Of a DNA stretch of 21,781 bases, positions 5,986 through 20,045 are shown piece by piece. A program made the position numbers and the translations under genes. The stretch is from a virus, in IMG/VR virus record IMGVR_UViG_3300030098_005028, positions 121,278 to 143,058 of that record; one strand, given 5' to 3'. Positions within the stretch are counted from its first letter, which is position 1. The number at the start of each line of letters is the position of its first letter. The notes below the pieces were generated by a model. That model saw only the letters and a list, made by a program, of their open reading frames with translations, was not told the DNA's origin and did not search any database.

Positions 5986-6013
5986 ATTATACCATTAGTA
6001 TCGGAGTTGTCTA
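5986..6013 (-). promoter_or_regulatory. mRNA promoter, CGAT class
   Basis: Minus strand TAGACA, N4, CGAT, N8, TATAAT, spacer 16 bp, extended -10 TGG. Drives the 133-codon gene. The divergent cassette promoter starts 47 bp away. Confidence 0.75.
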
Positions 6014-6059
6014 GTAATTACTTTAGAAAATACTGTAAAAAAAAATTTAGTTTTTACGC

Positions 6060-6140
6060 TTGACATTGGATGAATATATGGTAAAATCGGCGGGGTAGGT
6101 TTAGAAAAAACACCCCCGTTTTACTGAGGGTGTTTCTTTT
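6060..6140 (+). promoter_or_regulatory. Plus-strand cassette promoter with short terminated RNA
   Basis: TTGACA (6060-6065), N16, TAAAAT (6082-6087), then CGGCGGGG and TTTAG. AAACACCC (6108-6115) pairs GGGTGTTT (6128-6135), with T residues on both sides, so it can stop transcription in both directions. The predicted plus RNA is about 50 nt. Confidence 0.65.
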
Positions 6141-6146
6141 CCGCTG

Positions 6147-6209
6147 CTATTCTCCGGCGATTCCCGCACAGAAGCAAGCAATCATTAGGAATATAATTAA
6201 GACAGCCAT
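6147..6209 (-). CDS. Possible membrane micropeptide, 20 aa
   Basis: A 20-codon frame (MAVLIIFLMIACFC and a short Gly/Ala tail) is almost wholly hydrophobic, with GGGAG six nt before the ATG. It lies 67 nt after the DUF932 gene and before the terminator at 6108-6135, so it would be on the same transcript. Length alone gives little statistical support; the ribosome binding site and hydrophobicity favour it. Confidence 0.4.
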   Translation of the reverse strand: MAVLIIFLMIACFCAGIAGE

Positions 6210-6233
6210 GTCAATCTCCCAAAAGATGATAGT

Positions 6234-6256
6234 GGGGGCAGGACAATCCTACCCCC
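6234..6256 (-). other. Intercistronic hairpin after DUF932
   Basis: GGGGGTAGGA pairs TCCTGCCCCC on the minus strand with one wobble and a 3-nt loop. There is no T-run, so it is more likely an mRNA stability or processing element than a terminator. Confidence 0.5.
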
Positions 6257-6275
6257 TTATTCTACCACCTGTCGG

Positions 6276-7511
6276 TCAGACTGCCAGACTTTTCGAGAAT
6301 GATTTCTCAATCTCTTTATCAGACATTACCTTAGCCTGATTGACTAATGCTTCCCAGCGAGGTGCAGTTATGTTTGCCATCTCTCCACCAACCTGATCTA
6401 GCTTCAACCAACTGGCATCATCCAGAGTTTGTCCGAATCTGGTTATCGCATTTACAACTCCAAAAGCTGAGTTAGCTTCATTGCCAAGAATATCTTTCTC
6501 GACTAGGAAAGCCTCCATAACTCCGGTTGCATGTTTCTTAGTAATTCCAAATCCCTTTACAGTCTGAGCAATTACATTAGACATTGGTGCAACACCGTTT
6601 ACTTTATGCTCACGAAGTTTCAACAATACATCTATGCCGGAATCTACAAGAGGAATTTGTGCAGTCAGGTTTTCTATGATTTCTTCACGAAGTAAAGTTA
6701 AATCAATATTACCTTTATGCACTTGCTTAATAGCACTTCCACTTTGCTTATCCCATATGCAACCATTCATACAGATAGCACGGAATACGGAAGGTTGACT
6801 ACTCATAGTTCGCATACCAATCTCAGAGTTACCGATTGACAGCATACCACCATAATCAGAATCGTCTTCTTCTCGAATCGAATCAGGAATAAGAATATTA
6901 CCAAAAATGTTATCATGGTCACCGCGCCAGTGCGATATTTTGCCATCCTTGACAGTTTTCGTAACAGTCTCCATAAACCAAGAATTGTTGATGATTGCAT
7001 ACTGGTGAGATAGCATTGCACGCAAAGTACCATCAGTCCAAGTTCTAAACAATCTTTCCTTGTCTTGATCTACTCGGTCACTACGAAACAATGTCTTCTC
7101 AAGAGTATAGGCCATGAGTTCAGCGTCACCTGAGTCACGAGTGAATAAGAATCCACCTTTTGTAGGATGTTCCTTATCCCTGCCTAATCCTTGAAGGTAT
7201 CCCGTTGAAAGATAGCCGTTGACAGCTAGGTGTTTCAACGCATGTTGAGTAGGTGCAAAAGAACGTCCGTCTTTATATTGCAAGACGCATTCTCCATCAG
7301 CACTTACCGCTGGCTTCCAGTCTGATAGCGGACTTCTAATATCCTCAATCATCCTTTGACCTTCAGCGACTTTATCCAACACTTCATCGTAGCTCAGGCA
7401 CTTATCTTCCCAAGCCTTAGAAACATTCTTAAAATCCTTAGCAACGGTTTGAGTCTCCAACACGAAGTCTCCAAGATATTGTTGCTGCTTTTCTTGTCCA
7501 AGTTTTTCCAT
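6276..7511 (-). CDS. DUF932 phage/plasmid protein, 411 aa
   Basis: The largest protein in the window. Order and motifs match the DUF932 family found on phages and plasmids: an N-terminal region with RSFAPTQHALKHLA (about 82-95), AMLSHQYAIINN (about 162-173), a beta-rich middle with GMLSIGNSEIGMRT, SQPSVFRAICMNGCIWD (about 238-254), then a long helical C-terminus. The family's biochemical role is unknown; members often sit beside replication and recombination genes. Normal length, no frameshift. AGGAG lies 7 nt before the ATG. Its leader (7527-7553) shares ACCAACTTG with the operator of the helix-turn-helix gene, so it may be under the same regulator. Confidence 0.9.
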   Translation of the reverse strand: MEKLGQEKQQQYLGDFVLETQTVAKDFKNVSKAWEDKCLSYDEVLDKVAEGQRMIEDIRSPLSDWKPAVSADGECVLQYKDGRSFAPTQHALKHLAVNGYLSTGYLQGLGRDKEHPTKGGFLFTRDSGDAELMAYTLEKTLFRSDRVDQDKERLFRTWTDGTLRAMLSHQYAIINNSWFMETVTKTVKDGKISHWRGDHDNIFGNILIPDSIREEDDSDYGGMLSIGNSEIGMRTMSSQPSVFRAICMNGCIWDKQSGSAIKQVHKGNIDLTLLREEIIENLTAQIPLVDSGIDVLLKLREHKVNGVAPMSNVIAQTVKGFGITKKHATGVMEAFLVEKDILGNEANSAFGVVNAITRFGQTLDDASWLKLDQVGGEMANITAPRWEALVNQAKVMSDKEIEKSFSKSLAV

Positions 7512-7526
7512 TTTTAGTCTCCTTTA

Positions 7527-7553
7527 TTAGACTGACCAACTTGTATGAACTAA
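7527..7553. promoter_or_regulatory. Possible second operator site
   Basis: TTAG and CTAA flank ACCAACTTG (7535-7543), nine bases identical to the centre of the operator at 5521-5541, here as an imperfect palindrome directly downstream of the DUF932 -10 box. Confidence 0.4.
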
Positions 7554-7580
7554 TCATATCATAACTATCGACGCTTGCAA
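7553..7580 (-). promoter_or_regulatory. mRNA promoter, CGAT class
   Basis: Minus strand TTGCAA, N4, CGAT, N8, TATGAT, spacer 16 bp, extended -10 TG. Drives DUF932. Confidence 0.75.
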
Positions 7581-7636
7581 GTAATTTCTTTATATTATTC
7601 CTAAAAAGTTTTTTTAATATTTTTTTTATTTTTTGC

Positions 7637-7690
7637 TTGACTTTCTCTAAAGTTGTGGTAAAATTGGCGGGGTGGGATTTGCTGGTACAT
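7637..7690 (+). promoter_or_regulatory. Plus-strand cassette promoter
   Basis: TTGACT (7637), N16, TAAAAT (7659-7664), then TGGCGGGG and ATTTGCTGGTAC. It starts 57 bp from the -35 of the DUF932 promoter. Two CTTGCT repeats follow. Confidence 0.6.
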
Positions 7691-7698
7691 AGAAACCG

Positions 7699-7800
7699 CT
7701 TGCTGCTGAGAAATTGATGAGTCGTTTGATAATATTAGCAAATACAAAAAACACTTGCTCCTAGTCATCGGAAAAGTCATTTTACAATATTAGCAAATAC
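7699..7800 (+). repeat. CTTGCT-family repeat, two units
   Basis: Units at 7699 and 7754. Both contain AGTC around the centre and end ATATTAGCAAATAC. Period about 55 bp. Confidence 0.6.
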
Positions 7801-7805
7801 AAAAC

Positions 7806-7843
7806 AAAAAACCCCTGCTGCCTTCGGAGCGTGGCAACAGGGG
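7806..7843 (-). terminator. Terminator of the cysteine-rich gene
   Basis: Minus strand CCCCTG pairs CAGGGG (7812-7843) with inner GCC/GGC and is followed by TTTTTTG. Confidence 0.8.
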
Positions 7844-7844
7844 A

Positions 7845-7871
7845 ACAGTAGCGGGCGTTATTCGCTACTGT
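7845..7871. other. Perfect 8-bp hairpin
   Basis: ACAGTAGC (7845-7852) pairs GCTACTGT (7864-7871). It stands directly before the terminator on the minus transcript. Confidence 0.6.
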
Positions 7872-7885
7872 CGGGATTTTGTATG

Positions 7886-7932
7886 CTTGCTATCAAATTA
7901 GAGAATGAACCTGATAAGTTCTGCTAGTACAT
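7886..7932 (+). repeat. CTTGCT-family repeat unit, diverged
   Basis: CTTGCTATCAAATTAGAGAA, ending TTCTGCTAGTACA. A poor match that keeps the ends of the unit only. Confidence 0.35.
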
Positions 7933-7944
7933 AGGCCTTCGGCC

Positions 7945-8664
7945 TTAGTGGGGAGTACCCACTTCGGCCAGATTTTCGGTTATTTTTTCTGATAATTTTT
8001 TCCGTCGTGATCCGTGTGCCTTAAATCCTACGATACATTTTCGGTCACGTTTCTGACATACTTTGCAAGTATCGCAAGCGATTTCATCAGCTACCTGAGC
8101 AGGACAAACTAGAATCGGTAAACCATTAGGCGTTTTGTTTCCCTTGTTAGGTGCATCCTCCGGCAACACAACGGTAACGGGTGCAATGCCTAGTGCGTGA
8201 TATTCGTCGGCCTGTTCCATTGTATCCGCTGATAAGTTTACCACTAGACCACCGATTTCATTCATGCCATTAATAACTGAATTATTGTGTTCATCGGTAG
8301 GGTCATAATGTGTATATGTCCAACCGTCGGTATGAGATGACGCTTTAGCCAATGCTAAGCATTTATCTGAATCTAACTTATCAACATCGGCTGATTGATT
8401 TTCATCTTTCGGTAAGTCACCAGCCTGATTGTGTCGCCATAATGTATTCCTGCGAAATTTTCTGACTCGCTTGCAAAATGCGTCCCAATTATCGCCATAC
8501 TTATGATTGTTTACTTTTTTCCACCACATTCCCAAGTGACCTAATCCAGCATAGCACTCGTCAGATATGCCGCACTCTTTCGGGCATGATTTGCTTTCGG
8601 TAGTGGATACTGGAATAGCTCCAGTTTTTTTATTTGATGATACAGGTGTTAAATGAACCCACAT
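7945..8664 (-). CDS. Cysteine-rich conserved phage protein (WRHNQAGDLP family), 239 aa
   Basis: The protein matches a widespread phage family that I recall under the label DUF7227, though that number is from memory. Features in order: SNKKTGAIPVSTT near residue 10, a first cysteine cluster CPKECGISDECYAG (about 28-41), WRHNQAGDLP (about 77-86), TYTHYDPT, VVNLSADT, APVTVVLPEDAP, LVCPAQ and a second cluster CDTCKVCQKRDRKCIVGF (about 199-216) with AHGSRRKK. The clusters suggest bound metal, possibly an iron-sulfur centre; function is unknown. AAAGGA precedes the ATG by 9 nt. It has its own promoter and terminator. Confidence 0.85.
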   Translation of the reverse strand: MWVHLTPVSSNKKTGAIPVSTTESKSCPKECGISDECYAGLGHLGMWWKKVNNHKYGDNWDAFCKRVRKFRRNTLWRHNQAGDLPKDENQSADVDKLDSDKCLALAKASSHTDGWTYTHYDPTDEHNNSVINGMNEIGGLVVNLSADTMEQADEYHALGIAPVTVVLPEDAPNKGNKTPNGLPILVCPAQVADEIACDTCKVCQKRDRKCIVGFKAHGSRRKKLSEKITENLAEVGTPH

Positions 8665-8694
8665 GATATTATATCCTTTCTTGTTAGATACCTA

Positions 8695-8721
8695 ATTATA
8701 ACATAGTTATCGGTATGTCAA
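8695..8721 (-). promoter_or_regulatory. mRNA promoter, CGAT class
   Basis: Minus strand TTGACA, N3, CGAT, N8, TATAAT, spacer 15 bp, extended -10 TG. Drives the 239-codon gene. Confidence 0.75.
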
Positions 8722-8778
8722 GCATTTATCTTAATATATTTTTGAAATATTTTTTTTATTCTTTTTTTAATAATTTAC

Positions 8779-8830
8779 TTGACTTTTGCTCAAGACATGG
8801 TAAAATTTTGCAGGGTAAGATTTGCTGACA
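8779..8830 (+). promoter_or_regulatory. Plus-strand cassette promoter
   Basis: TTGACT (8779), N16, TAAAAT (8801-8806), then TTGCAGGG and TTTGCTGACA. It lies 58 bp from the divergent -35 and upstream of the only plus-strand gene, so here it could add to that gene's expression. Confidence 0.6.
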
Positions 8831-8875
8831 CAAAAGTATCTCCGAAAAACTTTTGGATTTGTTGAATAATACTCG

Positions 8876-8903
8876 TTGACAAGTCGATATATCATAGTAG
8901 AAT
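8876..8903 (+). promoter_or_regulatory. mRNA promoter, CGAT class, plus strand
   Basis: TTGACA, N3, CGAT, N9, TAGAAT, spacer 16 bp. The only CGAT promoter on the plus strand, and it precedes the only clear plus-strand gene, which ties CGAT to mRNA promoters. Confidence 0.75.
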
Positions 8904-8937
8904 GGTGATGTTGAGAGAAAAGGATAAGGAGACAATC

Positions 8938-9279
8938 ATGTTGGAAATCGGAGACAAAGCTAAGTTTCAGTATCTGAAACAGCCAGTCACGGATGACGAA
9001 AATCCTCAGCTAGTCAATCTAGTTGAGACCTCTGAAGTTTACTTCGGAGAAATCATAGACGTTCGTGATACCGCCAAAAATCCGGTAACGGATGAGACTA
9101 TTAGACGAGGAAATATTAAGGGACATCGTTCTCGGAATTTAATTTTTGTCAAATTAGCCGATGGAAGTATCAAGAGCTTTTATGATGGTCGTATGGTTTT
9201 ATTATCATTGACCAAACAGAAAATTATTCTTAGATTTGCTAAAGCATTACTTAGAAAATTTTCTAAAAATTCTACTTGA
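8938..9279 (+). CDS. Hypothetical protein, 113 aa, only plus-strand gene
   Basis: Unrecognised. Begins MLEIGDKAKFQYLKQP; a beta-rich core includes GEIIDVRDTAKNPVTDETIRRGN and NLIFVKLADGSIKSFYDGRM (about 66-85), and the tail is a basic amphipathic helix. The pattern looks like a small beta-barrel binding nucleic acid or another protein (inference). The ATG at 8938 is preferred over one at 8902 because AAGGAG lies 6 nt before it and the earlier ATG lies at the promoter -10 box. The stop TGA overlaps the -35 box of the next promoter, which drives a structured RNA. Confidence 0.75.
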   Translation: MLEIGDKAKFQYLKQPVTDDENPQLVNLVETSEVYFGEIIDVRDTAKNPVTDETIRRGNIKGHRSRNLIFVKLADGSIKSFYDGRMVLLSLTKQKIILRFAKALLRKFSKNST

Positions 9280-9303
9280 CTTATTACTTCACAGTGATAT
9301 AAT
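9276..9303 (+). promoter_or_regulatory. Promoter of structured RNA B
   Basis: TTGACT, N16, TATAAT with extended -10 TGA, no CGAT. The -35 box overlaps the stop codon of the preceding gene. Expected start near 9310. Confidence 0.7.
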
Positions 9304-9309
9304 AGTAGA

Positions 9310-9402
9310 AGAAGAATTAAGACTATCTAGTTGTCAAGGGAACTTAGTCTGTAACTCAGAGGCAACCGCGCAAGCAGGTTACAGACTGTCTTAGTTTTTT
9401 TT
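9310..9402 (+). ncRNA. Small structured RNA B with terminator
   Basis: AGTCTGTAAC (9346-9355) pairs GTTACAGACT (9378-9387) perfectly, and eight T residues follow at 9395-9402. An alternative stem AGACTA (9320-9325) with TAGTCT (9345-9350) excludes it, so attenuation is possible. The 24 nt at 9369-9392 recur in RNA C (13764-13787, minus). No reading frame is present. Confidence 0.6.
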
Positions 9403-9545
9403 GAAAGGTGCCACTTCGGTGGGCAGGAGATCTCCGTAAATGTTTTTCCTGTAGTTGGTTTAAGCAAACAATTTAATTGGCAAACCATCATTTAATCAGT
9501 TTGTGGTAATCGTGGGTTCAAATCCCATCACTTTTCACTTGCCCG
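9403..9545 (+). ncRNA. tRNA-like element with a perfect T-arm, unresolved
   Basis: GTGGG-TTCAAAT-CCCAT (9512-9528) is a textbook tRNA T-arm. GAAAGGTG (9403-9410) can pair CACTTTTC (9529-9536), exactly where an acceptor strand should be, giving eight pairs with one wobble. But about 130 nt separate the ends and no standard D or anticodon arm fits, so this is an inserted, decayed or non-canonical tRNA-like RNA. A competing stem GGGCAGG (9421-9427) with CTTGCCC (9538-9544) is also possible. Confidence 0.4.
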
Positions 9546-9596
9546 ACAGTAGCTCTGTTTGGTAGCAAATAAGATTCCTCTTCATGAGGGTCTCCG

Positions 9597-9638
9597 GCCT
9601 CGCAGGTTCTTAATCCTTTCTGACCTGCGGGGCTTTTT
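9597..9638 (+). terminator. Strong plus-strand terminator
   Basis: GCCTCGCAGGT (9597-9607) pairs ACCTGCGGGGC (9623-9633) with one wobble, followed by TTTTT. Ends the plus-strand block. Confidence 0.8.
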
Positions 9639-9639
9639 G

Positions 9640-9745
9640 CTTGCTCTTAGCCATTGTAAAAGTCGTTGCGTAACATTTGCTGATACTTGCTTGCTCTTAG
9701 TTATAGAAAAAGTCGTTTTATAACATTTGGTGATACACGCAAATC
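9640..9745 (+). repeat. CTTGCT-family tandem repeat, 50-bp period
   Basis: Units at 9640 and 9690: CTTGCTCTTAG...AAAAGTCGTT...TAACATTTG(C/G)TGATAC. A decayed third start is at 9740. The centre TAAAAGTCGTTGCGTAAC aligns base for base with the start region of the plus-strand cassette promoters. Confidence 0.65.
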
Positions 9746-9749
9746 AAAT

Positions 9750-9794
9750 AAAAAAGATGAGCCGCAGGTGGAAAACAGACCTACGGCTCATCTT
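9750..9794 (-). terminator. Terminator of the 71-codon gene
   Basis: AAGATGAGCCG pairs CGGCTCATCTT (9754-9794), 11 bp plus inner GGT/ACC, followed on the minus strand by TTTTTTATTT. Confidence 0.85.
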
Positions 9795-9818
9795 GAAACG
9801 CTTGTACTACACGTTTCC

Positions 9819-10034
9819 TTATACTTTTGAGTGGTATTCCATGCACTTTTTATGGATTTTATCTTTCCACATTTCTCTATTTAATTCATAAAGTTGCCAA
9901 TCTTCTGCGTCTTGGCCTTGCAAGGGTTCTCCTGTGTATAGGTCTAGTCCATTAGCTATCCTCTCCCTATACATTTCCATTCTACGTTGTCTTTCCTCCA
10001 TGACTTGTCCGCTTAGTCTAGCTGATTTTGGCAA
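9819..10034 (-). CDS. Hypothetical protein, 71 aa, TTG start
   Basis: Unrecognised small protein, helical and charged: PKSARLSGQVMEERQRRMEM, then a short GLDLYTGEPLQGQDAEDW loop and a second helix. The start codon is TTG, supported by AGGAG 8 nt upstream. It ends with a strong terminator. The only promoter before it (10079-10105) has a 15-bp spacer and no CGAT, so it may also be read from the operon upstream. Confidence 0.75.
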   Translation of the reverse strand: MPKSARLSGQVMEERQRRMEMYRERIANGLDLYTGEPLQGQDAEDWQLYELNREMWKDKIHKKCMEYHSKV

Positions 10035-10078
10035 TATATAAACTCCTAATAAATCTACTTTAATATCTTCTCTGTTTC

Positions 10079-10105
10079 ATTTTAACACGTATATGTGAAT
10101 GTCAA
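10079..10105 (-). promoter_or_regulatory. Possible promoter overlapping a stop codon
   Basis: Minus strand TTGACA, N15, TAAAAT, no CGAT. The -35 box contains the TGA stop of the 70-codon gene. Confidence 0.45.
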
Positions 10106-10314: not shown

Positions 10315-10340
10315 TTTATTTACCTTCATTTTCTCCAAAA

Positions 10341-10558: not shown

Positions 10559-10586
10559 ATTATAATACTCATCGGCACAATGTCAA
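10559..10586 (-). promoter_or_regulatory. mRNA promoter, CGAT class
   Basis: Minus strand TTGACA, N6, CGAT, N6, TATAAT, spacer 16 bp. Confidence 0.85.
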
Positions 10587-10641
10587 TCATTTATTTACTA
10601 TTTTATCGAAAAACTTTTTTTATTATTTTATCAAAATATAG

Positions 10642-10716
10642 TTGACATTCTATCTTTTTATGGTAAAATTTGCGGGGTAAGATTAGAAGCTCCATCCCTT
10701 GCGGGATGGAACTTCT
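10642..10716 (+). promoter_or_regulatory. Plus-strand cassette promoter and hairpin
   Basis: TTGACA (10642), N16, TAAAAT (10664-10669), then TTGCGGGGTAAGATTAG. Hairpin AGAAG/CTTCT plus TCCATCCC/GGGATGGA (10685-10716). No T-run. 56 bp from the divergent -35. Confidence 0.7.
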
Positions 10717-10726
10717 ACGACTACGT

Positions 10727-11075: not shown

Positions 11076-11103
11076 ATTATAATACTATATCGGACTATGT
11101 CAA
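11076..11103 (-). promoter_or_regulatory. mRNA promoter, CGAT class
   Basis: Minus strand TTGACA, N5, CGAT, N7, TATAAT, spacer 16 bp. Confidence 0.85.
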
Positions 11104-11158
11104 ACAAATATTTAAGATTTTCTATAAAAAGTTTTTTAATAATTATTTCATTTTTTAG

Positions 11159-11234
11159 TTGACTTTTGTTGAATATATGCTAAAATTTTTGCGAGGCAAG
11201 ATTAGGAACTCCGCCCCTTTCGGGGCGAAGTTCC
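11159..11234 (+). promoter_or_regulatory. Plus-strand cassette promoter and hairpin
   Basis: TTGACT (11159), N16, TAAAAT (11181-11186), then TTTGCGAGGCAAGATTAG. GGAACT/AGTTCC plus CGCCCC/GGGGCG (11205-11234). 56 bp from the divergent -35. Confidence 0.7.
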
Positions 11235-11243
11235 CTTTCACGT

Positions 11244-11782: not shown

Positions 11783-11810
11783 ATTATAATATAGATCGAC
11801 CTAATGTCAA
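11783..11810 (-). promoter_or_regulatory. mRNA promoter, CGAT class
   Basis: Minus strand TTGACA, N6, CGAT, N6, TATAAT, spacer 16 bp. Drives the SprT-like gene. Confidence 0.85.
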
Positions 11811-11865
11811 ATGATTCTTTAGCATTTTATGGAAAAACTTTTTTAGTAATTATTATATTTTTTGC

Positions 11866-11925
11866 TTGACTTTTGTGATTATTAAGGTAAAATTTGCGGG
11901 GCAGCATTAGCTGCTACTCGCTAAT
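11866..11925 (+). promoter_or_regulatory. Plus-strand cassette promoter
   Basis: TTGACT (11866), N16, TAAAAT (11888-11893), then TTGCGGGG and ATTAGCTGCTAC. The branched hairpin at 11935-11987 follows. 56 bp from the divergent -35. Confidence 0.7.
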
Positions 11926-12938: not shown

Positions 12939-12966
12939 ATTATACTATTATTATCGAACATGTCAA
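12939..12966 (-). promoter_or_regulatory. mRNA promoter, CGAT class
   Basis: Minus strand TTGACA, N4, CGAT, N8, TATAAT, spacer 16 bp. Confidence 0.85.
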
Positions 12967-13022
12967 ACACTTTCTTTAGTATTTTATCGAAAAGTTTTTT
13001 TAATAATAATTATATTTTTTGC

Positions 13023-13093
13023 TTGACAAATCGCCTTTCGTGATGTAAAATTTGCGGGGTAAGATTAGCTGTTTCTTTCTATGGCTAAAGAAA
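13023..13093 (+). promoter_or_regulatory. Plus-strand cassette promoter and hairpin
   Basis: TTGACA (13023), N17, TAAAAT (13046-13051), then TTGCGGGGTAAGATTAGCTG. TTTCTTT/AAAGAAA hairpin (13072-13093). 57 bp from the divergent -35. Confidence 0.7.
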
Positions 13094-13588: not shown

Positions 13589-13616
13589 ATTATAATCTAC
13601 ATCGTCATTATGTCAA
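13589..13616 (-). promoter_or_regulatory. mRNA promoter, CGAT class
   Basis: Minus strand TTGACA, N6, CGAT, N6, TATAAT, spacer 16 bp. Confidence 0.85.
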
Positions 13617-13671
13617 TTAATTCTTTAACAAAATACTAGATTATTTTTTCTAATATTATTTTATTTAAATC

Positions 13672-13720
13672 TTGACATTGTCTAAAGTTCGCCTAAAATT
13701 TGCGGGGTAGATTTAGCTGT
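13672..13720 (+). promoter_or_regulatory. Plus-strand cassette promoter
   Basis: TTGACA (13672), N16, TAAAAT (13694-13699), then TTGCGGGGTAGATTTAGCTG. Converges on RNA C. 56 bp from the divergent -35. Confidence 0.7.
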
Positions 13721-13734: not shown

Positions 13735-14002
13735 TAAAAATACCACCGAAGCCGCACTTCTTCAAGACAGTCTGTAACCTGCTTGCGACTCCGGTGGTTT
13801 GCGTCATCAGTCAGAAAGTCAATTAATCTTTCTGTTCAATCCCTGCTACCCGATGCCTCGGACAGAGATGCTCAAGCCAATGACTCCATGTCTGCAAGAC
13901 ATGATCATGAGCAGTCGTAACGGACTTGGTTCAGAATTAACATAAGCCAACATGTTCCAAGACATACAGAGGTTTCTAGAACCGAGCCGTCACTTACTTG
14001 TA
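13735..14002 (-). ncRNA. Structured RNA C, about 270 nt
   Basis: No reading frame, own promoter and a long 3' terminator: 13742-13756 pairs 13784-13798 over 15 bp (ACCACCG/CGGTGGT outermost, two wobbles), followed by TATTTTTATT. Upstream on the RNA are CATGTCT-TGC-AGACATG, AGAAAG/CTTTCT, GGTT/AACC and a CTTGG/CCAAG domain enclosing AACAT/ATGTT. The terminator loop carries 24 nt identical to RNA B, whose 5' arm AGTCTGTAAC is complementary to this loop. No known family recognised. Confidence 0.7.
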
Positions 14003-14008
14003 CCTTTA

Positions 14009-14036
14009 ATTATAAACTATGTTTTTGTATTGTCAA
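14009..14036 (-). promoter_or_regulatory. Promoter of RNA C
   Basis: Minus strand TTGACA, N16, TATAAT, no CGAT. The -35 box overlaps the stop codon of the 27-codon gene. Confidence 0.8.
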
Positions 14037-14434: not shown

Positions 14435-14462
14435 ATTATAATCTATATCGGTATATTGTCAA
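14435..14462 (-). promoter_or_regulatory. mRNA promoter, CGAT class
   Basis: Minus strand TTGACA, N6, CGAT, N6, TATAAT, spacer 16 bp. Confidence 0.85.
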
Positions 14463-14517
14463 TCAATTCTTTAGTATTTTATCGAAAAATTTTTTTAGCA
14501 ATTATTCTATTTTTTAC

Positions 14518-14596
14518 TTGACATTCCCTAAAGCTATGATAAAATTTGCGGGGTAAGATTAGCTACCCCACCCCTTACTTTTGGGGCGAGGTAGCT
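14518..14596 (+). promoter_or_regulatory. Plus-strand cassette promoter and hairpin
   Basis: TTGACA (14518), N16, TAAAAT (14540-14545), then TTGCGGGGTAAGATTAGCT. AGCTACC pairs GGTAGCT (14561-14596). 56 bp from the divergent -35. Confidence 0.7.
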
Positions 14597-14614
14597 ATCA
14601 GAAAGGAATTTTGT

Positions 14615-15089: not shown

Positions 15090-15090
15090 T

Positions 15091-15484: not shown

Positions 15485-15512
15485 ATTATAATACCTATCG
15501 TCTATTTGTCAA
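15485..15512 (-). promoter_or_regulatory. mRNA promoter, CGAT class
   Basis: Minus strand TTGACA, N6, CGAT, N6, TATAAT, spacer 16 bp. Heads the four-gene operon to 14615. Confidence 0.85.
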
Positions 15513-15544
15513 TTAATTATTTAGTTTTATTTTTAATATTTTAT

Positions 15545-15751
15545 AAAAAAAAGGTGGCAAGCGAGCGGGAATCGAACCCGCTATCAAACAGCAAAAAAGT
15601 GTTGACCTAAAGCTCGGTCGGTGTATCCGTGAACTTATTAACCTTGACCGGTCATAGGTGCCACTTCGTGTCGTCATATCCTGTTGGGCAATTCACCCAA
15701 CAAAAACACTTTTAAGGCTTTCTGATTGATGTACCAACCGCCGCCCTTTGT
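15545..15751 (-). ncRNA. Structured RNA D with tRNA-like T-arm, about 205 nt
   Basis: No reading frame; a CGAT promoter upstream and T8 at the end. Near the 3' end is GCGGG-TTCGATT-CCCGC, a perfect tRNA T-arm, preceded at canonical distance by an anticodon-like hairpin AACAC-TTTTTTG-CTGTT (one mismatch) and 5 nt of variable loop. The acceptor does not close normally: GTGGCA pairs TGCCAC just before the T-run about 110 nt apart, and AAAAGTGTT pairs AACACTTTT further out. TGTTGGG/CCCAACA forms another hairpin. It may be an interrupted tRNA, a tRNA-derived RNA or a new class. Confidence 0.55.
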
Positions 15752-15757
15752 TCCTTA

Positions 15758-15785
15758 ATTATAATATACATCGGTACATTGTCAA
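15758..15785 (-). promoter_or_regulatory. CGAT-class promoter of RNA D
   Basis: Minus strand TTGACA, N6, CGAT, N6, TATAAT, spacer 16 bp. The only structured RNA here with an mRNA-type promoter. Confidence 0.85.
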
Positions 15786-15841
15786 GTAGTTCTTTAACTA
15801 TTTTATTAAAAAAATTATTTAGTAATTATTTACTTTTTTGC

Positions 15842-15900
15842 TTGACAAATCGTATTATTATGATAAAATTTTGCAGGGTAGGATTTGCTGATACTTGCCT
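15842..15900 (+). promoter_or_regulatory. Plus-strand cassette promoter
   Basis: TTGACA (15842), N16, TAAAAT (15864-15869), then TTGCAGGG and TTTGCTGATAC. 57 bp from the divergent -35. Runs into the hairpin at 15913. Confidence 0.65.
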
Positions 15901-15907
15901 ATTATAT

Positions 15908-15948
15908 AAAAACCCCACTAGCAGCATTGTGTAGCACCACTAGCGGGG
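15908..15948 (-). terminator. Terminator of the lipoprotein gene
   Basis: CCCC-CTAG / CTAG-GGGG stem with one mismatch (15913-15948), followed on the minus strand by TTTTTAT. Confidence 0.75.
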
Positions 15949-15962
15949 CGAAGGAAGTTCAA

Positions 15963-16139
15963 TTATTTCCAATCAGGCTCTGACTCTTGCAAGTAAAGCC
16001 CCCCTCCAAATTCTACATCACTCCCAAATACTCTTGTTTGGGTTTTGTTAGCCGCCGCACATCCCGTCAGAGTGATTATAAACCACCCCAACAGGAAAGC
16101 GCCGATACACATAAATGCACTTTTATTTTTACTTTCCAT
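15963..16139 (-). CDS. Small lipoprotein, 58 aa
   Basis: Residues 1-7 are charged, 8-26 hydrophobic (AFMCIGAFLLGWFIITLTG), ending in a lipobox LTGC with Cys27 as the lipidation site, so this is a secreted lipoprotein of about 32 mature residues. GAGGAGG lies 5 nt before the ATG at 16139. It follows a 39-codon membrane peptide whose stop codon overlaps its ribosome binding site. A small lipoprotein next to a membrane peptide resembles a spanin pair in outline, but both are very short and there is no lysis context, so other envelope roles (exclusion, for instance) are equally possible. Confidence 0.75.
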   Translation of the reverse strand: MESKNKSAFMCIGAFLLGWFIITLTGCAAANKTQTRVFGSDVEFGGGLYLQESEPDWK

Positions 16140-16149
16140 TTCTTCCTCC

Positions 16150-16269
16150 TCAAAGCAAATTCCAAGTAAGATAATCAAAGGCATAAGCTATAGCCCCACC
16201 GATGATTGCAAACGATATTACAAGACCCCAAAATTGTTGGTTCTGTCTTTTCTGTTCTTCGTAATCCAT
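16150..16269 (-). CDS. Single-pass membrane peptide, 39 aa
   Basis: A 39-codon frame: polar N-terminus MDYEEQKRQNQQ, then a hydrophobic span (FWGLVISFAIIGGAIAYAF, residues 13-31) and a short tail. AAAGGA lies before the ATG, and the stop TGA is part of the ribosome binding site of the lipoprotein gene, so the pair is coupled. First gene after the promoter at 16304-16332. Confidence 0.72.
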   Translation of the reverse strand: MDYEEQKRQNQQFWGLVISFAIIGGAIAYAFDYLTWNLL

Positions 16270-16303
16270 GACTTTCCTTTCTGACTAATTAACTTAATAT
16301 CTA

Positions 16304-16332
16304 AGTATACTATTAGTATCGAACCATGCCAT
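16304..16332 (-). promoter_or_regulatory. mRNA promoter, CGAT class, weak -35
   Basis: Minus strand ATGGCA, N5, CGAT, N8, TATACT, spacer 17 bp. No plus-strand cassette promoter follows; CTTG repeats take its place. Confidence 0.6.
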
Positions 16333-16362
16333 TAAAAACTTTAGAAAAAAACAAAAAAACCA

Positions 16363-16482
16363 CTTGATGTAAGTAAAAGAAAAAGCCGCCACGTACTATT
16401 AGCTGAAACACTTGGTCTAAGCAGAAGAAAAAGCTGCCACGTACCATTAGCTGAAACATAACCAAAATTCTTGTTCAATAAG
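16363..16482 (+). repeat. CTTGCT-family tandem repeat
   Basis: Units at 16363 and 16411 (48-bp period) share AAAAGC(C/T)GCCACGTAC and ATTAGCTGAAACA. A shortened third, CTTGTTCAATAAGTTTAGCTG, starts at 16470 and enters the terminator hairpin. Confidence 0.65.
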
Positions 16483-16485
16483 TTT

Positions 16486-16512
16486 AGCTGCCCCTTTCGG
16501 GGCAGCTTTTTT
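16486..16512 (+). terminator. Plus-strand terminator
   Basis: AGCTGCCCC-TTTC-GGGGCAGCT followed by TTTTTT on the plus strand. The same hairpin without T-run follows several plus-strand cassette promoters. Confidence 0.75.
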
Positions 16513-16517
16513 ATTCC

Positions 16518-16673
16518 TTATATCAACTTAGGATCGAAATTTTCTAGATATAGGTCGGTATTCGCATCGTAATACTTTCCCTCAGCCGGATCGTAAAAGT
16601 ATCTGCCACCGTATTCATGTGACTCTGGAAATACCGGTTCTAATCCCTGCTGTTTTGCGGTTGCGTGTGTCAT
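16518..16673 (-). CDS. Hypothetical protein, 51 aa
   Basis: Unrecognised: MTHATAKQQGLEPVFPESHE, then YGGRYFYDPAEGKYYDANTD and a short acidic end. Tyrosine-rich with a repeated Y-D motif. The start at 16673 is chosen for AAGGA 6 nt upstream; an alternative ATG at 16709 adds MLNIIKNWEGKK but has a poorer site. The promoter at 16732-16759 excludes any start further upstream. Single-gene unit. Confidence 0.7.
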   Translation of the reverse strand: MTHATAKQQGLEPVFPESHEYGGRYFYDPAEGKYYDANTDLYLENFDPKLI

Positions 16674-16731
16674 TTTCTTTCCTTCCCAATTTTTGATTAT
16701 GTTTAACATGTTTGTCTCTCTTTCTTCCTTT

Positions 16732-16759
16732 ATTATAATATATATCGGCACCGTGTCAA
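16732..16759 (-). promoter_or_regulatory. mRNA promoter, CGAT class
   Basis: Minus strand TTGACA, N6, CGAT, N6, TATAAT, spacer 16 bp. Confidence 0.85.
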
Positions 16760-16814
16760 CTAATTATTTAGTATTTTATGAAAAAACTTTTTTAATAATA
16801 TTTTTATTTTTTAC

Positions 16815-16880
16815 TTGACAAACTGCACTATTATGCTATAATTTTTGCGGGGTTGGATTAGCTGCCCCTTTCGGGGCAGC
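16815..16880 (+). promoter_or_regulatory. Plus-strand cassette promoter and hairpin
   Basis: TTGACA (16815), N16, TATAAT (16837-16842), full consensus, then TTTGCGGGG and ATTAGCTGCCCC; hairpin GCTGCCCCTTTCGGGGCAGC (16861-16880). 56 bp from the divergent -35. Confidence 0.75.
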
Positions 16881-16892
16881 CTTTCCGCTTGC

Positions 16893-17108
16893 CTATAGCC
16901 ACTTGATATTCTCTAAGACAAATTTCTTAGGGAATTTTTTCTGGTTATCGTCTAAGTCTTTAGCACGGATTCCGTCACTCTTTCCGTGGTCGAATAGAGT
17001 TGACACGACTAGTACACGACGACGACGGGCTTCTTTGTCTTTGCTTCCTTTGTAATTGAAAGCGACCTCACGACCCACTAAACCGATTGCTTCAAGTCTT
17101 GTAATCAT
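16893..17108 (-). CDS. Hypothetical basic protein, 71 aa
   Basis: Unrecognised. MITRLEAIGLVGREVAFNYK begins with a short helix and strand, followed by a basic run KEARRRRVLVV and an end GIRAKDLDDNQKKFPKKFVL. The strand order and the final KKFVLENIKWL recall the ligand-binding end of WYL-type domains (RxFRLDRI), a weak resemblance only. AAAGGA precedes the ATG. Single-gene unit. Confidence 0.78.
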   Translation of the reverse strand: MITRLEAIGLVGREVAFNYKGSKDKEARRRRVLVVSTLFDHGKSDGIRAKDLDDNQKKFPKKFVLENIKWL

Positions 17109-17146
17109 TTTTTATCCTTTCTATTGATGATTAACTTTATGCCCTT

Positions 17147-17174
17147 ATTATATTATAATTATCGTCACTGTCAA
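17147..17174 (-). promoter_or_regulatory. mRNA promoter, CGAT class
   Basis: Minus strand TTGACA, N4, CGAT, N8, TATAAT, spacer 16 bp. Confidence 0.8.
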
Positions 17175-17240
17175 GTAAAAACTTTATAAAATCTTATAAA
17201 AACTTTTTTCTTTTTTTCTATCTTTTTTACTGTTTTGCTA

Positions 17241-17307
17241 TTGACATAATTACTATAATATGCTATAATTTTTGCGGGGTTGGATTAGCTGCCCCTTTCG
17301 GGGCAGC
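17241..17307 (+). promoter_or_regulatory. Plus-strand cassette promoter and hairpin
   Basis: TTGACA (17241), N17, TATAAT (17264-17269), then TTTGCGGGG and ATTAGCT; GCTGCCCC/GGGGCAGC hairpin (17288-17307). 67 bp from the divergent -35, one helical turn more than usual. Confidence 0.75.
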
Positions 17308-17321
17308 CTTTCCGCTTTTCA

Positions 17322-17543
17322 CTATTCGTTAGCCGTGCCATACTTCTCAAAGTATTTTCGAGTTGCATCTACTCTAGCCTGTGAAACTTCTTTCACTGTG
17401 ACAACTTCCCACTGTACTCGGGAATTATACTTGAACATAGTTTCGCCATGCTCATTCTGGACTAGGCTCTTAGCACTTACCATAAGAAAAGTTTCTTCTC
17501 GGCCAGTTTCTGGGTGAACTGCTGTTACATCGTATTGTTTCAT
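17322..17543 (-). CDS. Hypothetical protein, 73 aa
   Basis: Unrecognised small protein, beta then helix: MKQYDVTAVHPETGREETFL, MVSAKSLVQNE, WEVVTVKEVSQAR and a charged C-terminal helix. The arrangement could be a small ubiquitin-like or ferredoxin-like fold (shape impression only). GGAAAGGA lies before the ATG. Single-gene unit. Confidence 0.78.
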   Translation of the reverse strand: MKQYDVTAVHPETGREETFLMVSAKSLVQNEHGETMFKYNSRVQWEVVTVKEVSQARVDATRKYFEKYGTANE

Positions 17544-17572
17544 AATATTTTCCTTTCCGTTTGATTTCCTTT

Positions 17573-17600
17573 ATTATAATATACATCGGCATGATGTCAA
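17573..17600 (-). promoter_or_regulatory. mRNA promoter, CGAT class
   Basis: Minus strand TTGACA, N6, CGAT, N6, TATAAT, spacer 16 bp. Confidence 0.85.
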
Positions 17601-17655
17601 GCAATAATTTAGTATTTTATCGAAAAACTTTTTTTATATTTTTTTTATAATTTAC

Positions 17656-17718
17656 TTGACAAACTCAATTATTATGCTAAAATTTGCGGGGTAGCATTAG
17701 CTGCCCCTTGCGGGGCAG
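17656..17718 (+). promoter_or_regulatory. Plus-strand cassette promoter and hairpin
   Basis: TTGACA (17656), N16, TAAAAT (17678-17683), then TTGCGGGGTAGCATTAGCTG; CTGCCCC/GGGGCAG (17701-17718). 56 bp from the divergent -35. Confidence 0.72.
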
Positions 17719-17722
17719 TCCT

Positions 17723-17821
17723 TTATTCTTGGGGTGCGTCTTCTTGTTCGTGGATTTCTTGAGCTTTCGCCATGTCATCCATGTCGAATAACTCTTTTAT
17801 TATTTCGTGGATGTCAAACAT
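17723..17821 (-). CDS. Small acidic protein, 32 aa
   Basis: A 32-codon frame (MFDIHEIIKELFDMDDMAKA and an acidic, glutamine-rich end), probably one amphipathic helix. Its ATG overlaps the stop of the 39-codon gene by 8 nt, and the stop falls 5 nt before the cassette hairpin. The ribosome binding site is weak and distant, so coupling is needed. Without these two genes the promoter at 17969 would have no product. Confidence 0.6.
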   Translation of the reverse strand: MFDIHEIIKELFDMDDMAKAQEIHEQEDAPQE

Positions 17822-17933
17822 TTTTTTCTAATTCTTCCTCTAATTTATCACACTCATTAAAAACTTTTTTGGTTTCTGGATCAAAGCTGTCAACCACAGC
17901 AAGCCATTCCATCCATTCCATTTCTATATCCAT
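17814..17933 (-). CDS. Small acidic protein, 39 aa
   Basis: A 39-codon frame (MDIEMEWMEWLAVVDSFDPE, then a charged helix ending ELEKNV) with the standard leader AAAGGA before its ATG and a CGAT promoter at the usual distance. Tryptophan-rich N-terminal helix, acidic throughout. Two-gene operon with the overlapping 32-codon gene. Function unknown. Confidence 0.72.
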   Translation of the reverse strand: MDIEMEWMEWLAVVDSFDPETKKVFNECDKLEEELEKNV

Positions 17934-17968
17934 TTCGTTTTCCTTTCTTAGTTTCTTTGATTTCCTTT

Positions 17969-17996
17969 ATTATAATATATATCGGTAGCATGTCAA
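17969..17996 (-). promoter_or_regulatory. mRNA promoter, CGAT class
   Basis: Minus strand TTGACA, N6, CGAT, N6, TATAAT, spacer 16 bp. Drives the 39- and 32-codon genes. Confidence 0.85.
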
Positions 17997-18052
17997 ACAA
18001 TTCTTTAGTATTTTATCGAAAAACTTTTTTTATATTTTTTTTAGTTTTGGGG

Positions 18053-18116
18053 TTGACTTTCTCATATAATAGTGTAAAATTTGCGGGGTTGGATTAGCTG
18101 CCCCTTGCGGGGCAGC
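18053..18116 (+). promoter_or_regulatory. Plus-strand cassette promoter and hairpin
   Basis: TTGACT (18053), N16, TAAAAT (18075-18080), then TTGCGGGGTTGGATTAGCTG; GCTGCCCC/GGGGCAGC (18097-18116). Nearly identical to 18447 over about 50 bp. 57 bp from the divergent -35. Confidence 0.72.
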
Positions 18117-18128
18117 CTTTCCGCTTGC

Positions 18129-18323
18129 CTACCATCCAAGTACCTCATTCAATTCTTTTTGTAACTTTTTCAATTCGGCTGATGTCGGTCTCGCTTTCAC
18201 TTCCGTATTTGGTAGGTCATGCGCCCAGATAATTGTCTCGAAATTTTTTCTGGCTGCTTGTACGTCCTTCGCTTCTGTGTCTGCGATTCTTTTACCGTTT
18301 GAATAAAGATCGAATTTTCTCAT
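18129..18323 (-). CDS. Hypothetical basic protein, 64 aa
   Basis: Unrecognised. MRKFDLYSNGKRIADTEAKD gives a beta-hairpin start, then helices (VQAARKNFETIIWAHDL, AELKKLQKELNEVLGW). The layout is compatible with a small RNA- or DNA-binding alpha/beta protein (inference). AAAGGA lies before the ATG. Single-gene unit. Confidence 0.78.
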   Translation of the reverse strand: MRKFDLYSNGKRIADTEAKDVQAARKNFETIIWAHDLPNTEVKARPTSAELKKLQKELNEVLGW

Positions 18324-18361
18324 AACTTTTTCCTTTCTAATTATGTCTCTTTGTCTCTTTC

Positions 18362-18389
18362 ATTATAATATATATATCGGCTATGTCAA
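18362..18389 (-). promoter_or_regulatory. mRNA promoter, CGAT class
   Basis: Minus strand TTGACA, N4, CGAT, N8, TATAAT, spacer 16 bp. Confidence 0.85.
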
Positions 18390-18446
18390 GCAATTACTTT
18401 AGTTTTTTTCTAAAAAACTTTTTTAGTATTTTTTTTAATTTTGGGG

Positions 18447-18500
18447 TTGACTTTCTCATATAATAGTGTAAAATTTGCGGGGTTGGATTTGATGAGACAA
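18447..18500 (+). promoter_or_regulatory. Plus-strand cassette promoter
   Basis: TTGACT (18447), N16, TAAAAT (18469-18474), then TTGCGGGGTTGGATTTGATG. Leads into the duplicated 201-bp block. 58 bp from the divergent -35. Confidence 0.7.
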
Positions 18501-18669
18501 TTTTCTAATTTTGTCAAAAAAAACGTATAAAAAAAAATCGCAAAAATTTTATAAAAAATTACAAATTTTGCTTGCTTTCCGCCAAAAAAAAGCCGCTTCG
18601 CAGCATTAGCTGCTACGCAGCTATTTTGCTTGCTTTCCGCCAAAAAAAAGCCGCTTCGCAGCATTAGCT
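18469..18669 (+). repeat. 201-bp intergenic duplication, copy 1
   Basis: From the -10 box of the cassette promoter through two CTTGCT units (18571 and 18629, 58-bp period). Differs from copy 2 (20017-20217) at only a handful of bases. Contains GACAA/TTGTC and GCAAAA...TTTTGC inverted repeats and GCAGC-ATTA-GCTGC hairpins. Confidence 0.85.
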
Positions 18670-18719
18670 ACTCCACCCCTTGCGGGATAGAGTAGCCTTT
18701 GCTTCAGAAAGGTTTTTTC

Positions 18720-18953
18720 TTAACTATGGGGTTTTACTTCTATAAGGTCTCTAACTCTAGTAAGCACATCAATGCATTCTCCTGCATGGCTGTAAAACGT
18801 GTAACCAATCAGTCTAGATGTTGGTAGTATTCGTATGTCACTAACCTCAATCCGTCGGATTTTCTTTTCGTGTTTGTAAATGCCATCCGTCCAGTGGCTA
18901 AGTATAATTGTTTTTTGGTCTTTGATAGCTTCTTGAAATTCTGCTAGATTCAT
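18720..18953 (-). CDS. Hypothetical protein, 77 aa
   Basis: Unrecognised. MNLAEFQEAIKDQKTIILSH, a basic beta segment KHEKKIRRIEVSDIRILP and a short YTFYSHAGECIDV block. Probably alpha/beta. The ATG at 18953 is chosen for AAAGGA 8 nt upstream; a longer frame from 18989 starts at the promoter. Single-gene unit. Confidence 0.77.
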   Translation of the reverse strand: MNLAEFQEAIKDQKTIILSHWTDGIYKHEKKIRRIEVSDIRILPTSRLIGYTFYSHAGECIDVLTRVRDLIEVKPHS

Positions 18954-18991
18954 CGTTTTTTCCTTTCTGAGTTTCTCTTTCTGTCTCATTT

Positions 18992-19019
18992 ATTATAATA
19001 TTAATATCGACGTTGTCAA
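18992..19019 (-). promoter_or_regulatory. mRNA promoter, CGAT class
   Basis: Minus strand TTGACA, N4, CGAT, N8, TATAAT, spacer 16 bp. Confidence 0.85.
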
Positions 19020-19075
19020 CTAAATACTTTAGAAAATACCATAAAAACTTTTTCTAAAAAAATTAAAAAAACTAC

Positions 19076-19138
19076 TTGACAAACCGTTGTTTTTAGTGTA
19101 AAATTTGCGGGGCAAGTTTAGCTGCCCCTTGCGGGGCA
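19076..19138 (+). promoter_or_regulatory. Plus-strand cassette promoter and hairpin
   Basis: TTGACA (19076), N17, TAAAAT (19099-19104), then TTGCGGGGCAAGTTTAGCTG; TGCCCC/GGGGCA (19123-19138). 57 bp from the divergent -35. Confidence 0.72.
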
Positions 19139-19154
19139 ACTCCTTGCTTCTCCT

Positions 19155-19376
19155 TTATAGTTCTTCGTCGTGGTAGTATTCCATAGCTCGGCTGATTGAC
19201 TTTTCTTCGTCCATTCTTTCCGATTCTTCTAGCCTCTTTTCCAATATTGGCATAATCTCTTTAAGAGTATTTGCATAACTTGTATGCTTGGCCGTGCTAG
19301 GCAAAGCGTTGAATTCATCTTTTACGTGTCCAAGTAGTAAAGCGATTTGTGAAGTTGCTTGAGTTATGTGTAACAT
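19155..19376 (-). CDS. Hypothetical helical protein, 73 aa
   Basis: Unrecognised, mostly helical: MLHITQATSQIALLLGHVKD, then KEIMPILEKRLEESERMDEE and an acidic end YYHDEEL. Likely a two-helix hairpin. AAAGG precedes the ATG. Single-gene unit. Confidence 0.77.
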   Translation of the reverse strand: MLHITQATSQIALLLGHVKDEFNALPSTAKHTSYANTLKEIMPILEKRLEESERMDEEKSISRAMEYYHDEEL

Positions 19377-19406
19377 TGTTTTAACCTTTCTGTTAATGTT
19401 TCCTTT

Positions 19407-19434
19407 ATTATAATATGTATCGGCGTATTGTCAA
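19407..19434 (-). promoter_or_regulatory. mRNA promoter, CGAT class
   Basis: Minus strand TTGACA, N6, CGAT, N6, TATAAT, spacer 16 bp. Confidence 0.85.
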
Positions 19435-19510
19435 CAATTATTTCACTAAAAACTATAATTTTTCCAAAATAACTTTTTACGTTTTTTTTATTATTTTTCT
19501 GATTTTACTA

Positions 19511-19539
19511 TTGACATTTGTCCATTATTCCGATATAAT
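19511..19539 (+). promoter_or_regulatory. Plus-strand cassette promoter
   Basis: TTGACA, N17, TATAAT (19534-19539). 77 bp from the divergent -35, two helical turns more than usual. Drives the RNA at 19546-19652. Confidence 0.75.
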
Positions 19540-19545
19540 TTTGCG

Positions 19546-19652
19546 GGGCAAATTTAGCTGATACAATTATTGATATTGAGACTCAGTCTCAATAAGGCCA
19601 ATTTATTGGTTTGGCTGAGACAAATAAAAAACCCCCTTCCGGGGGCTTTTTT
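19546..19652 (+). ncRNA. Short plus-strand RNA with own terminator
   Basis: The transcript begins GCGGGGCAAATTTAGCTG, then folds ATTGAGAC-TCA-GTCTCAAT and CCAA-TTTA-TTGG, and ends at CCCCC-TTCC-GGGGG (19632-19645) followed by T6. No reading frame. It shares its 5' end with the other cassette RNAs and is the clearest complete example. Confidence 0.65.
19625..19652. terminator. Bidirectional terminator
   Basis: CCCCC-TTCC-GGGGG with A-run on one side and T-run on the other, ending both the 67-codon gene (minus) and the plus-strand RNA. Confidence 0.85.
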
Positions 19653-19660
19653 CTAGGGAC

Positions 19661-19864
19661 TTAACCCCAATAATCGGGGTCATCGAATACCATATAAAGT
19701 TCATTCGGCAAATGCATCACAGGCTGACCATCGTACAATTCGACTTCTTCCGAGGATTCGCGCGCATCGTTCATCATTTCGGCACGCTGTTCCTCCATCA
19801 TCCAATTATATTTTTCTTCCCCTGCGGTTTCTTCTGGCGATTGATTTTTTACAAATTTGTTCAT
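19661..19864 (-). CDS. Hypothetical acidic protein, 67 aa
   Basis: Unrecognised, strongly acidic and methionine-rich: MNKFVKNQSPEETAGEEKYN, a helix EEQRAEMMNDARESSEEVEL and an end VFDDPDYWG. Acidic phage proteins of this size sometimes bind host nucleic-acid proteins or mimic DNA, but nothing specific can be claimed. AAAGGA lies before the ATG. Single-gene unit. Confidence 0.77.
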   Translation of the reverse strand: MNKFVKNQSPEETAGEEKYNWMMEEQRAEMMNDARESSEEVELYDGQPVMHLPNELYMVFDDPDYWG

Positions 19865-19899
19865 CTTTTTTCCTTTCTGAACTTGTTTCTCTTTCCTTT

Positions 19900-19927
19900 A
19901 TTATAATATATATCGCCACTATTGCAA
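19900..19927 (-). promoter_or_regulatory. mRNA promoter, CGAT class
   Basis: Minus strand TTGCAA, N6, CGAT, N6, TATAAT, spacer 16 bp. Confidence 0.82.
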
Positions 19928-19993
19928 TAACTTATTGACTAAATTCTATAAAAAAGACAATAAATTTATTTTCAAAAAATTCTAAAAAAAGAC

Positions 19994-20045
19994 TTGACAA
20001 GCCGCCTTTCGCATGGTAAAATTTGCGGGGTTAGATTTGATGAGA
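19994..20045 (+). promoter_or_regulatory. Plus-strand cassette promoter
   Basis: TTGACA (19994), N17, TAAAAT (20017-20022), then TTGCGGGGTTAGATTTGATG. 67 bp from the divergent -35. Leads into duplication copy 2. Confidence 0.7.

Follow-up and report, generated by a model that had tools for sequence, protein, structure and literature searches.

Genomic setting and organization of the cassettes

The analyzed window is a 21,781-nt stretch (positions 121278-143058) forming the right end of the 143,058-base IMG/VR virus record IMGVR_UViG_3300030098_005028, classed as linear, and it contains 18 divergent pairs of sigma-70-type promoters, hereafter cassettes, located between small early genes. In the left part of the record a terminase (matching several phrogs) represents the late-type genes on the plus strand, and the genes of DNA polymerase (assigned to phrog_405, with a best identity of 35%, to unclassified phages), ribonucleotide reductase and rIIA lie in the middle and are transcribed leftward. 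The right end is occupied by a series of leftward genes, mostly of 60-170 codons and with good Shine-Dalgarno (SD) sequences, and strong promoters are dense in this region and scarce elsewhere in the record. This layout suggests that a lytic tailed phage has its early region here, at the end of the record. No nucleotide match of the window was found in INPHARED (close records may escape such a search), and ARAGORN identified neither tRNA nor transfer-messenger RNA (tmRNA) genes within it.

Along the leftward mRNA, each cassette is arranged as follows: the stop codon that ends the preceding gene, then a hairpin of the mRNA, a conserved intergenic element of ~48 nt, which in the 18 cassettes is a consensus rightward promoter, an A/T-rich tract of ~56 bp, a strong leftward sigma-70 promoter, and the SD sequence with the next small gene. 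The leftward promoters are mostly of the TTGACA-N16-TATAAT form with a CGAT motif inside the spacer, and the rightward ones follow TTGAC(A/T)-N16/17-TA(A/T)AAT, with an extended -10 TG being common. The cassettes match no Rfam family. Their coordinates, together with those of the associated elements, are presented in Table 1.

The window was scanned for divergent promoters lying 20-120 bp apart, each with at least 10 of the 12 consensus positions. This resulted in 19 pairs, of which 17 are cassettes and the other two (8721 and 17179) are overlapping alternative matches, while the 18th cassette (7580/7637) fell below the threshold, its leftward promoter reaching 9/12. The same scan applied to the remaining 121 kb gave no divergent pair, and the chance expectation from dinucleotide-preserving shuffles was 0.24 ± 0.45 pairs. 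The repeated device proposed in the preliminary description of this DNA, a leftward mRNA promoter paired with a rightward one over an A/T tract, is present in all 18 places. Its claim that gene after gene carries this device holds for the leftward promoters, but to the right of 5.9 kb a rightward partner at the expected distance is missing from at least three strong leftward matches (15512, 12622, and 10105), and the same applies to weaker matches (e.g., 14036 and 16331).

Table 1. Promoter cassettes and associated elements (positions within the window unless another sequence is indicated; spacing is the distance between -35 boxes).
Feature	Position	Strand	Details
Cassette 1	5986..6087		leftward TAGACA-16-TATAAT; A/T spacing 47 bp; rightward TTGACA-16-TAAAAT
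Cassette 2	7553..7664		spacing 57; leftward TTGCAA/TATGAT weak, 9/12
Cassette 3	8695..8806		spacing 58; sole rightward promoter aimed at a rightward gene, whose own promoter is at 8876
Cassette 4	10559..10669		spacing 56
Cassette 5	11076..11186		spacing 56
Cassette 6	11783..11893		spacing 56
Cassette 7	12939..13051		spacing 57
Cassette 8	13589..13699		spacing 56
Cassette 9	14435..14545		spacing 56
Cassette 10	15758..15869		spacing 57; leftward promoter of a predicted non-coding RNA with tmRNA-like 3' end
Cassette 11	16732..16842		spacing 56
Cassette 12	17147..17269		spacing 67
Cassette 13	17573..17683		spacing 56
Cassette 14	17969..18080		spacing 57
Cassette 15	18362..18474		spacing 58
Cassette 16	18992..19104		spacing 57
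Cassette 17	19407..19539		spacing 77
Cassette 18	19900..20022		spacing 67
Rightward promoter with conserved initial region (example)	10642..10690	+	TTGACA-N16-TAAAAT-TTGCGGGGTAAGATTAG
mRNA-strand hairpin opposite the cassette 4 rightward promoter	10688..10722	-	G-U on - strand where + has A-C mismatches
Further hairpins of the same kind	11205-11235, 14563-14597, 16861-16884, 17288-17312, 17700-17722, 18097-18118, 18664-18702, 19121-19145
Two tandem promoter-less repeat copies	9637..9736	-	GTATCAGCTAAT..CTTTT..GCAAGC
Other promoter-less repeats	7698-7800, 16362-16457, 18570-18672, 20118-20281
GC-rich element of relatives	L140:190-300; L141, ends at reverse-complement positions 4953, 6877, 8927, 11710	L141: -

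The rightward promoter is conserved and faces the preceding gene

The hexamers of the rightward promoter are 92-95% identical between cassettes, and the spacer separating them retains 37-49% identity (25% being the random level). In 18/18 cassettes a G at +1 stands exactly 7 nt past the -10 box, despite the varying length of the T-run before GCGGGG. Since the hexamers and the +1 G have remained invariant while the spacer diverged, the rightward promoter is, judging from this pattern, under selection, and conservation likewise speaks for both promoters of each pair being real, as had been proposed. The exact rightward motif had no match in IMG/VR (where close records may escape the search), and its four single matches in genome contigs, belonging to assorted bacteria, were taken as chance.

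In 17 of the 18 cassettes this promoter drives no gene. Its direction is head-on to the preceding leftward gene, whose 3' end it faces across the hairpin. Rightward genes were rejected as its targets, as a rightward open reading frame with an SD sequence follows only cassette 3 among those of the window. The 18 intergenic hairpins contain 20 G-U pairs when folded as leftward RNA vs. 3 as rightward RNA, because a variant that makes a G-U pair on one strand makes an A-C mismatch on the other. These wobble pairs indicate that the hairpins are parts of the early mRNAs, at their 3' ends, and a role of the hairpins as rightward terminators was rejected for the same reason. Read from the sequences, an mRNA-strand U-tract is present at 8/17 of the facing 3' ends and missing from 9/17, which leaves room for another mechanism of stopping transcription there. 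The picture given in the preliminary description was incomplete in that it missed the geneless rightward promoter, the mRNA hairpin that it faces, and its apparent derivation from an intergenic repeat (see below).

The rightward transcripts themselves could be the functional products, i.e., a family of short RNAs (~20-60 nt) that share the conserved 5' end GGGGUNNGAUUAGCUG and pair in trans with the 3' ends of early mRNAs or with host RNAs. The initial transcribed region is indeed conserved, and 18 copies would yield much RNA. However, the hairpins belong to the opposite strand, no consistent terminator is found on the rightward strand, and the leader may owe its conservation to the mRNA-strand element (CAGCTAAT), copies of which exist without a promoter. 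We therefore regard such RNAs as an improbable explanation.

Probable origin of the rightward promoter from an intergenic repeat

Tandem intergenic repeats of ~48 nt without a promoter are also present in the region, and the rightward promoter appears to have been built from them. On the mRNA strand, the repeats and the rightward-promoter elements have in common GTATCAGCTAAT...TAC...TTTT...CAAG(C). In the promoter versions C-TTTT is replaced by ATTTTA, which constitutes the -10 box, and there is an additional insertion of 6-7 nt, which places GTCAAG (the -35 box) at a distance of 16-17 bp. Measured against shuffled elements, the similarity of the repeats to the promoter elements had z = 13; when the CAGCTAAT end that they share was left out, z was 3.5. 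As for the direction of change, the promoter-less element appears to be the older one; it is present in this phage, and a similar element is found in its relatives.

Two blocks of 205 nt (18468-18672 and 20016-20220) are 97% identical, and each of them contains two promoter-less repeats, each with GCTGCGAAGCGGC and an mRNA-strand T-run; the blocks probably reflect recent copying between cassettes. Near-identity over 62 nt (98%) fits site-to-site copying in the same way. Given these blocks and the homologous A/T spacers (see below), the rightward promoter might be a by-product without function, spread by cassette duplication and homogenized by recombination. Yet a neutral relic would decay, and 18/18 copies have kept the +1 G as well as the hexamers at 16-17 bp from each other, while the intervening spacer fell to the low identity given above, so that we consider this explanation rather unlikely.

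Early promoters of related phages

The nearest relatives (L013-L015), which share 56-58% identity in a 411-aa protein, possess arrays of the same CGAT-bearing promoter type, several of them preceded by an element of the form hairpin-CAGCTAA-hairpin-GATAGCAAG. In the early regions examined, no divergent pair with at least 10/12 matches was found within 40-85 bp, and a looser cut-off of 9/12 gave scattered partners in L013 and L026. No relatives were found via the SprT-like and 191-aa proteins, and a wide scan for GCTAA..ATAGCAAG yielded mostly single matches.

Between early genes of relatives, before their promoters, there is also a repeated GC-rich structured element (approximately GCGCCG-loop-CGGCGC / CCCC-loop-GGGG / GTAACAGCTAA-hairpin-GATAGCAAG). 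It matches no Rfam family and is possibly an undescribed phage RNA element. Moreover, in the leftward promoters of the window, as well as in L013, L014, and L022, CGAT(A) in the spacer between the -35 and -10 boxes is accompanied by a YTAAAG-like motif ~7 nt upstream of the -35 box; these motifs may be the site of a regulator or of a modification.

The G-run at the start site, the A/T-rich flank and the number of copies of the rightward elements would suit transcription-primed replication origins or R-loop sites, where a G-rich start follows a strong promoter. Against this, all 18 copies lie between early genes, no initiator gene was noted, and nothing similar occurs in the relatives, which makes this explanation very improbable.

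Spacing between the two promoters

The distances between the -35 boxes, recomputed from the sequence, were 47 bp (one cassette), 56 bp (7), 57 bp (5), 58 bp (2), 67 bp (2), and 77 bp (1), with counts identical to those reported before, and none of the 18 cassettes had an intermediate spacing, just as had been claimed. Clear homology shows about twelve of the A/T spacers to be copies of each other, and the 18 spacings are thus not independent observations. After collapsing the set to one representative and six weakly homologous spacers (57, 47, 56, 67, 57, 77, 67), the resultant was R = 0.98 for periods of 10-11 bp (p = 1e-4), and the use of the four distinct lengths only gave p = 0.002, both tests being post hoc. 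The stepping of ~10 bp, i.e., about one helical turn, goes beyond chance and is probably real.

Within the spacer tracts, A and T taken singly are periodic near 11 bp (with a peak at 11-12 bp), and AA/TT power does not rise at 10-10.5 bp, so any claim of curved DNA is only moderate. Such periodicity is as expected of two abutting UP elements and would by itself set steps of ~10 bp; slippage between periodic tracts could also produce insertions or deletions of 10 bp.

The preliminary description concluded from the spacing that the two promoters must share one face of the helix, as would be expected if both were served by a single protein complex or by two polymerases in contact. According to this explanation, early promoters would be loaded or fired as helically constrained pairs, either by back-to-back polymerases coupled via a bridge of phased A-tracts, or through a shared activator or architectural protein, with both promoters forced onto one face of the helix. 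The stepping remains significant after the homologues are collapsed, and the periodicity of the A/T tract is strong. However, phased A-tract UP elements, or slippage of one tract, would give the same steps, and a joint complex is therefore not required; about twelve spacers are homologous anyway, and no shared binding motif other than the A-tracts was seen between the promoters. Furthermore, in the relatives examined the leftward promoter type occurs without a strong partner at 40-85 bp, so that such a promoter can do without pairing. Thus, the need for a joint complex is unsupported, and joint firing has, in our opinion, a small chance of being correct. If polymerases were coupled in this way, the natural variants differing by one turn would make a ready-made test series.

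Neighbouring RNAs and the end of the record

A predicted non-coding RNA (15550-15758, minus strand) would be transcribed from the leftward promoter at 15785, and its end resembles the T-arm and acceptor of tmRNA/tRNA (GCGGGTTCGATTCCCGCTCGCTTGCCACC followed by T8), although the match to the Rfam tmRNA model covers 17 nt only and ARAGORN gave nothing. Two further stretches, 13740-14009 (minus strand) and 9304-9400 (plus strand), are likely non-coding RNAs with strong promoters, and both contain GCAAGCAGGTTACAGACTGTCTT. At the end of the record (21690-21781), short direct repeats CTGCCGTCTGCCGTCCG / ATTGTCTGCCG were found.

Proposed role of the head-on promoters

Strong early promoters placed every few hundred bases in the same direction should interfere with each other. 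The phage seems to have answered this interference by a reverse promoter that grew, in 18 places, inside an intergenic RNA element already there, and was retained. From the architecture, its conservation, the strand of the hairpins and the homology to the repeat, all of them observed directly, we infer activity, collisions and insulation as follows. Host RNA polymerase would load in both directions from the two abutting UP elements, the leftward promoter producing early mRNA, and the rightward one, starting at the conserved G, giving a short antisense RNA or a parked complex. Either of these, together with the hairpin, may stop or dampen transcripts arriving from the preceding gene, so that each of the closely packed, strong early genes would be insulated from its neighbour, as by a part composed of a terminator and an antisense promoter. 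The helical stepping would then reflect A-tracts phased to suit the alpha-subunit domains of each polymerase separately, and not one complex serving both.

We give roughly even chances to the explanation that these are cassettes resembling the promoter-early stem-loops (PeSLs), in which a head-on antisense promoter dampens or blocks read-through between early genes. Several observations weigh against it. A U-tract terminator is also kept at 8/17 of the 3' ends, which means that the rightward promoter is no simple substitute for terminators. A rightward promoter is present in cassette 3 as well, where there is no convergent gene; several leftward promoters lack a partner, and the relatives examined get by without a strong reverse promoter. 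Finally, a promoter would not require a conserved leader as long as GCGGGGTNNGATTAGCTG, part of which may have been kept for the sake of the mRNA-strand element.

If expression data agree, the window would offer a natural, repeated case of head-on promoters acting as gene insulators or attenuators, and its spacing variants would form a set for asking what the minimum separation of two back-to-back polymerases is.

Comparison with known systems

Enterobacterial bidirectional promoters, as described in PMC10268837 and PMC12825309, are pseudo-symmetrical, and one polymerase binding event prevents the other. They share with the cassettes divergent starts from a single intergenic site, but here two full promoters are present, with -35 boxes 47-77 bp apart. 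The class of symmetric bidirectional promoters was therefore rejected, the two promoters being separate and having no shared overlapping elements.

The host-takeover module of Bacillus phage SPO1 occupies a terminal genome region; its 26 early genes are mostly small, and its promoters are typical of highly expressed genes (PMC6873191). The window is similar, by description only, in being a terminal region of small early genes with strong promoters, and that account of the module describes no reverse-promoter array.

In a synthetic Escherichia coli system, a gene whose terminator is followed by a promoter in antisense orientation is repressed in proportion to the strength of that promoter (PMC4731013). 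As in these parts of Brophy and Voigt, a gene 3' end is followed here by a constitutive-type promoter facing the gene, which is the case in 17/18 cassettes (cassette 3 being the exception), and in place of the terminator a hairpin is nearly always present, with an mRNA-strand U-tract in 8/17. The parts reported in PMC4731013 are synthetic and concern a single gene, whereas the present arrangement is natural and occurs in 18 copies, each back-to-back with the promoter of the next gene.

In T4-type phages, each PeSL consists of a single promoter and a stem-loop (Arbiol 2010, Comeau 2014; as described in PMC4503421). A trait of PeSLs is the shuffling of gene modules, and the near-identical 205-nt and 62-nt blocks seen here would fit copying from site to site. 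As in PeSLs, an early sigma-70 promoter stands here beside an intergenic stem-loop of early genes, and such cassettes are repeated among small, poorly conserved early genes and bear signs of copying. Unlike in PeSLs as described in PMC4503421, a second promoter faces the upstream gene, and the phage is not shown to be T4-type. PeSLs are thus the nearest natural kind, and the reverse promoter is what these cassettes add to it.

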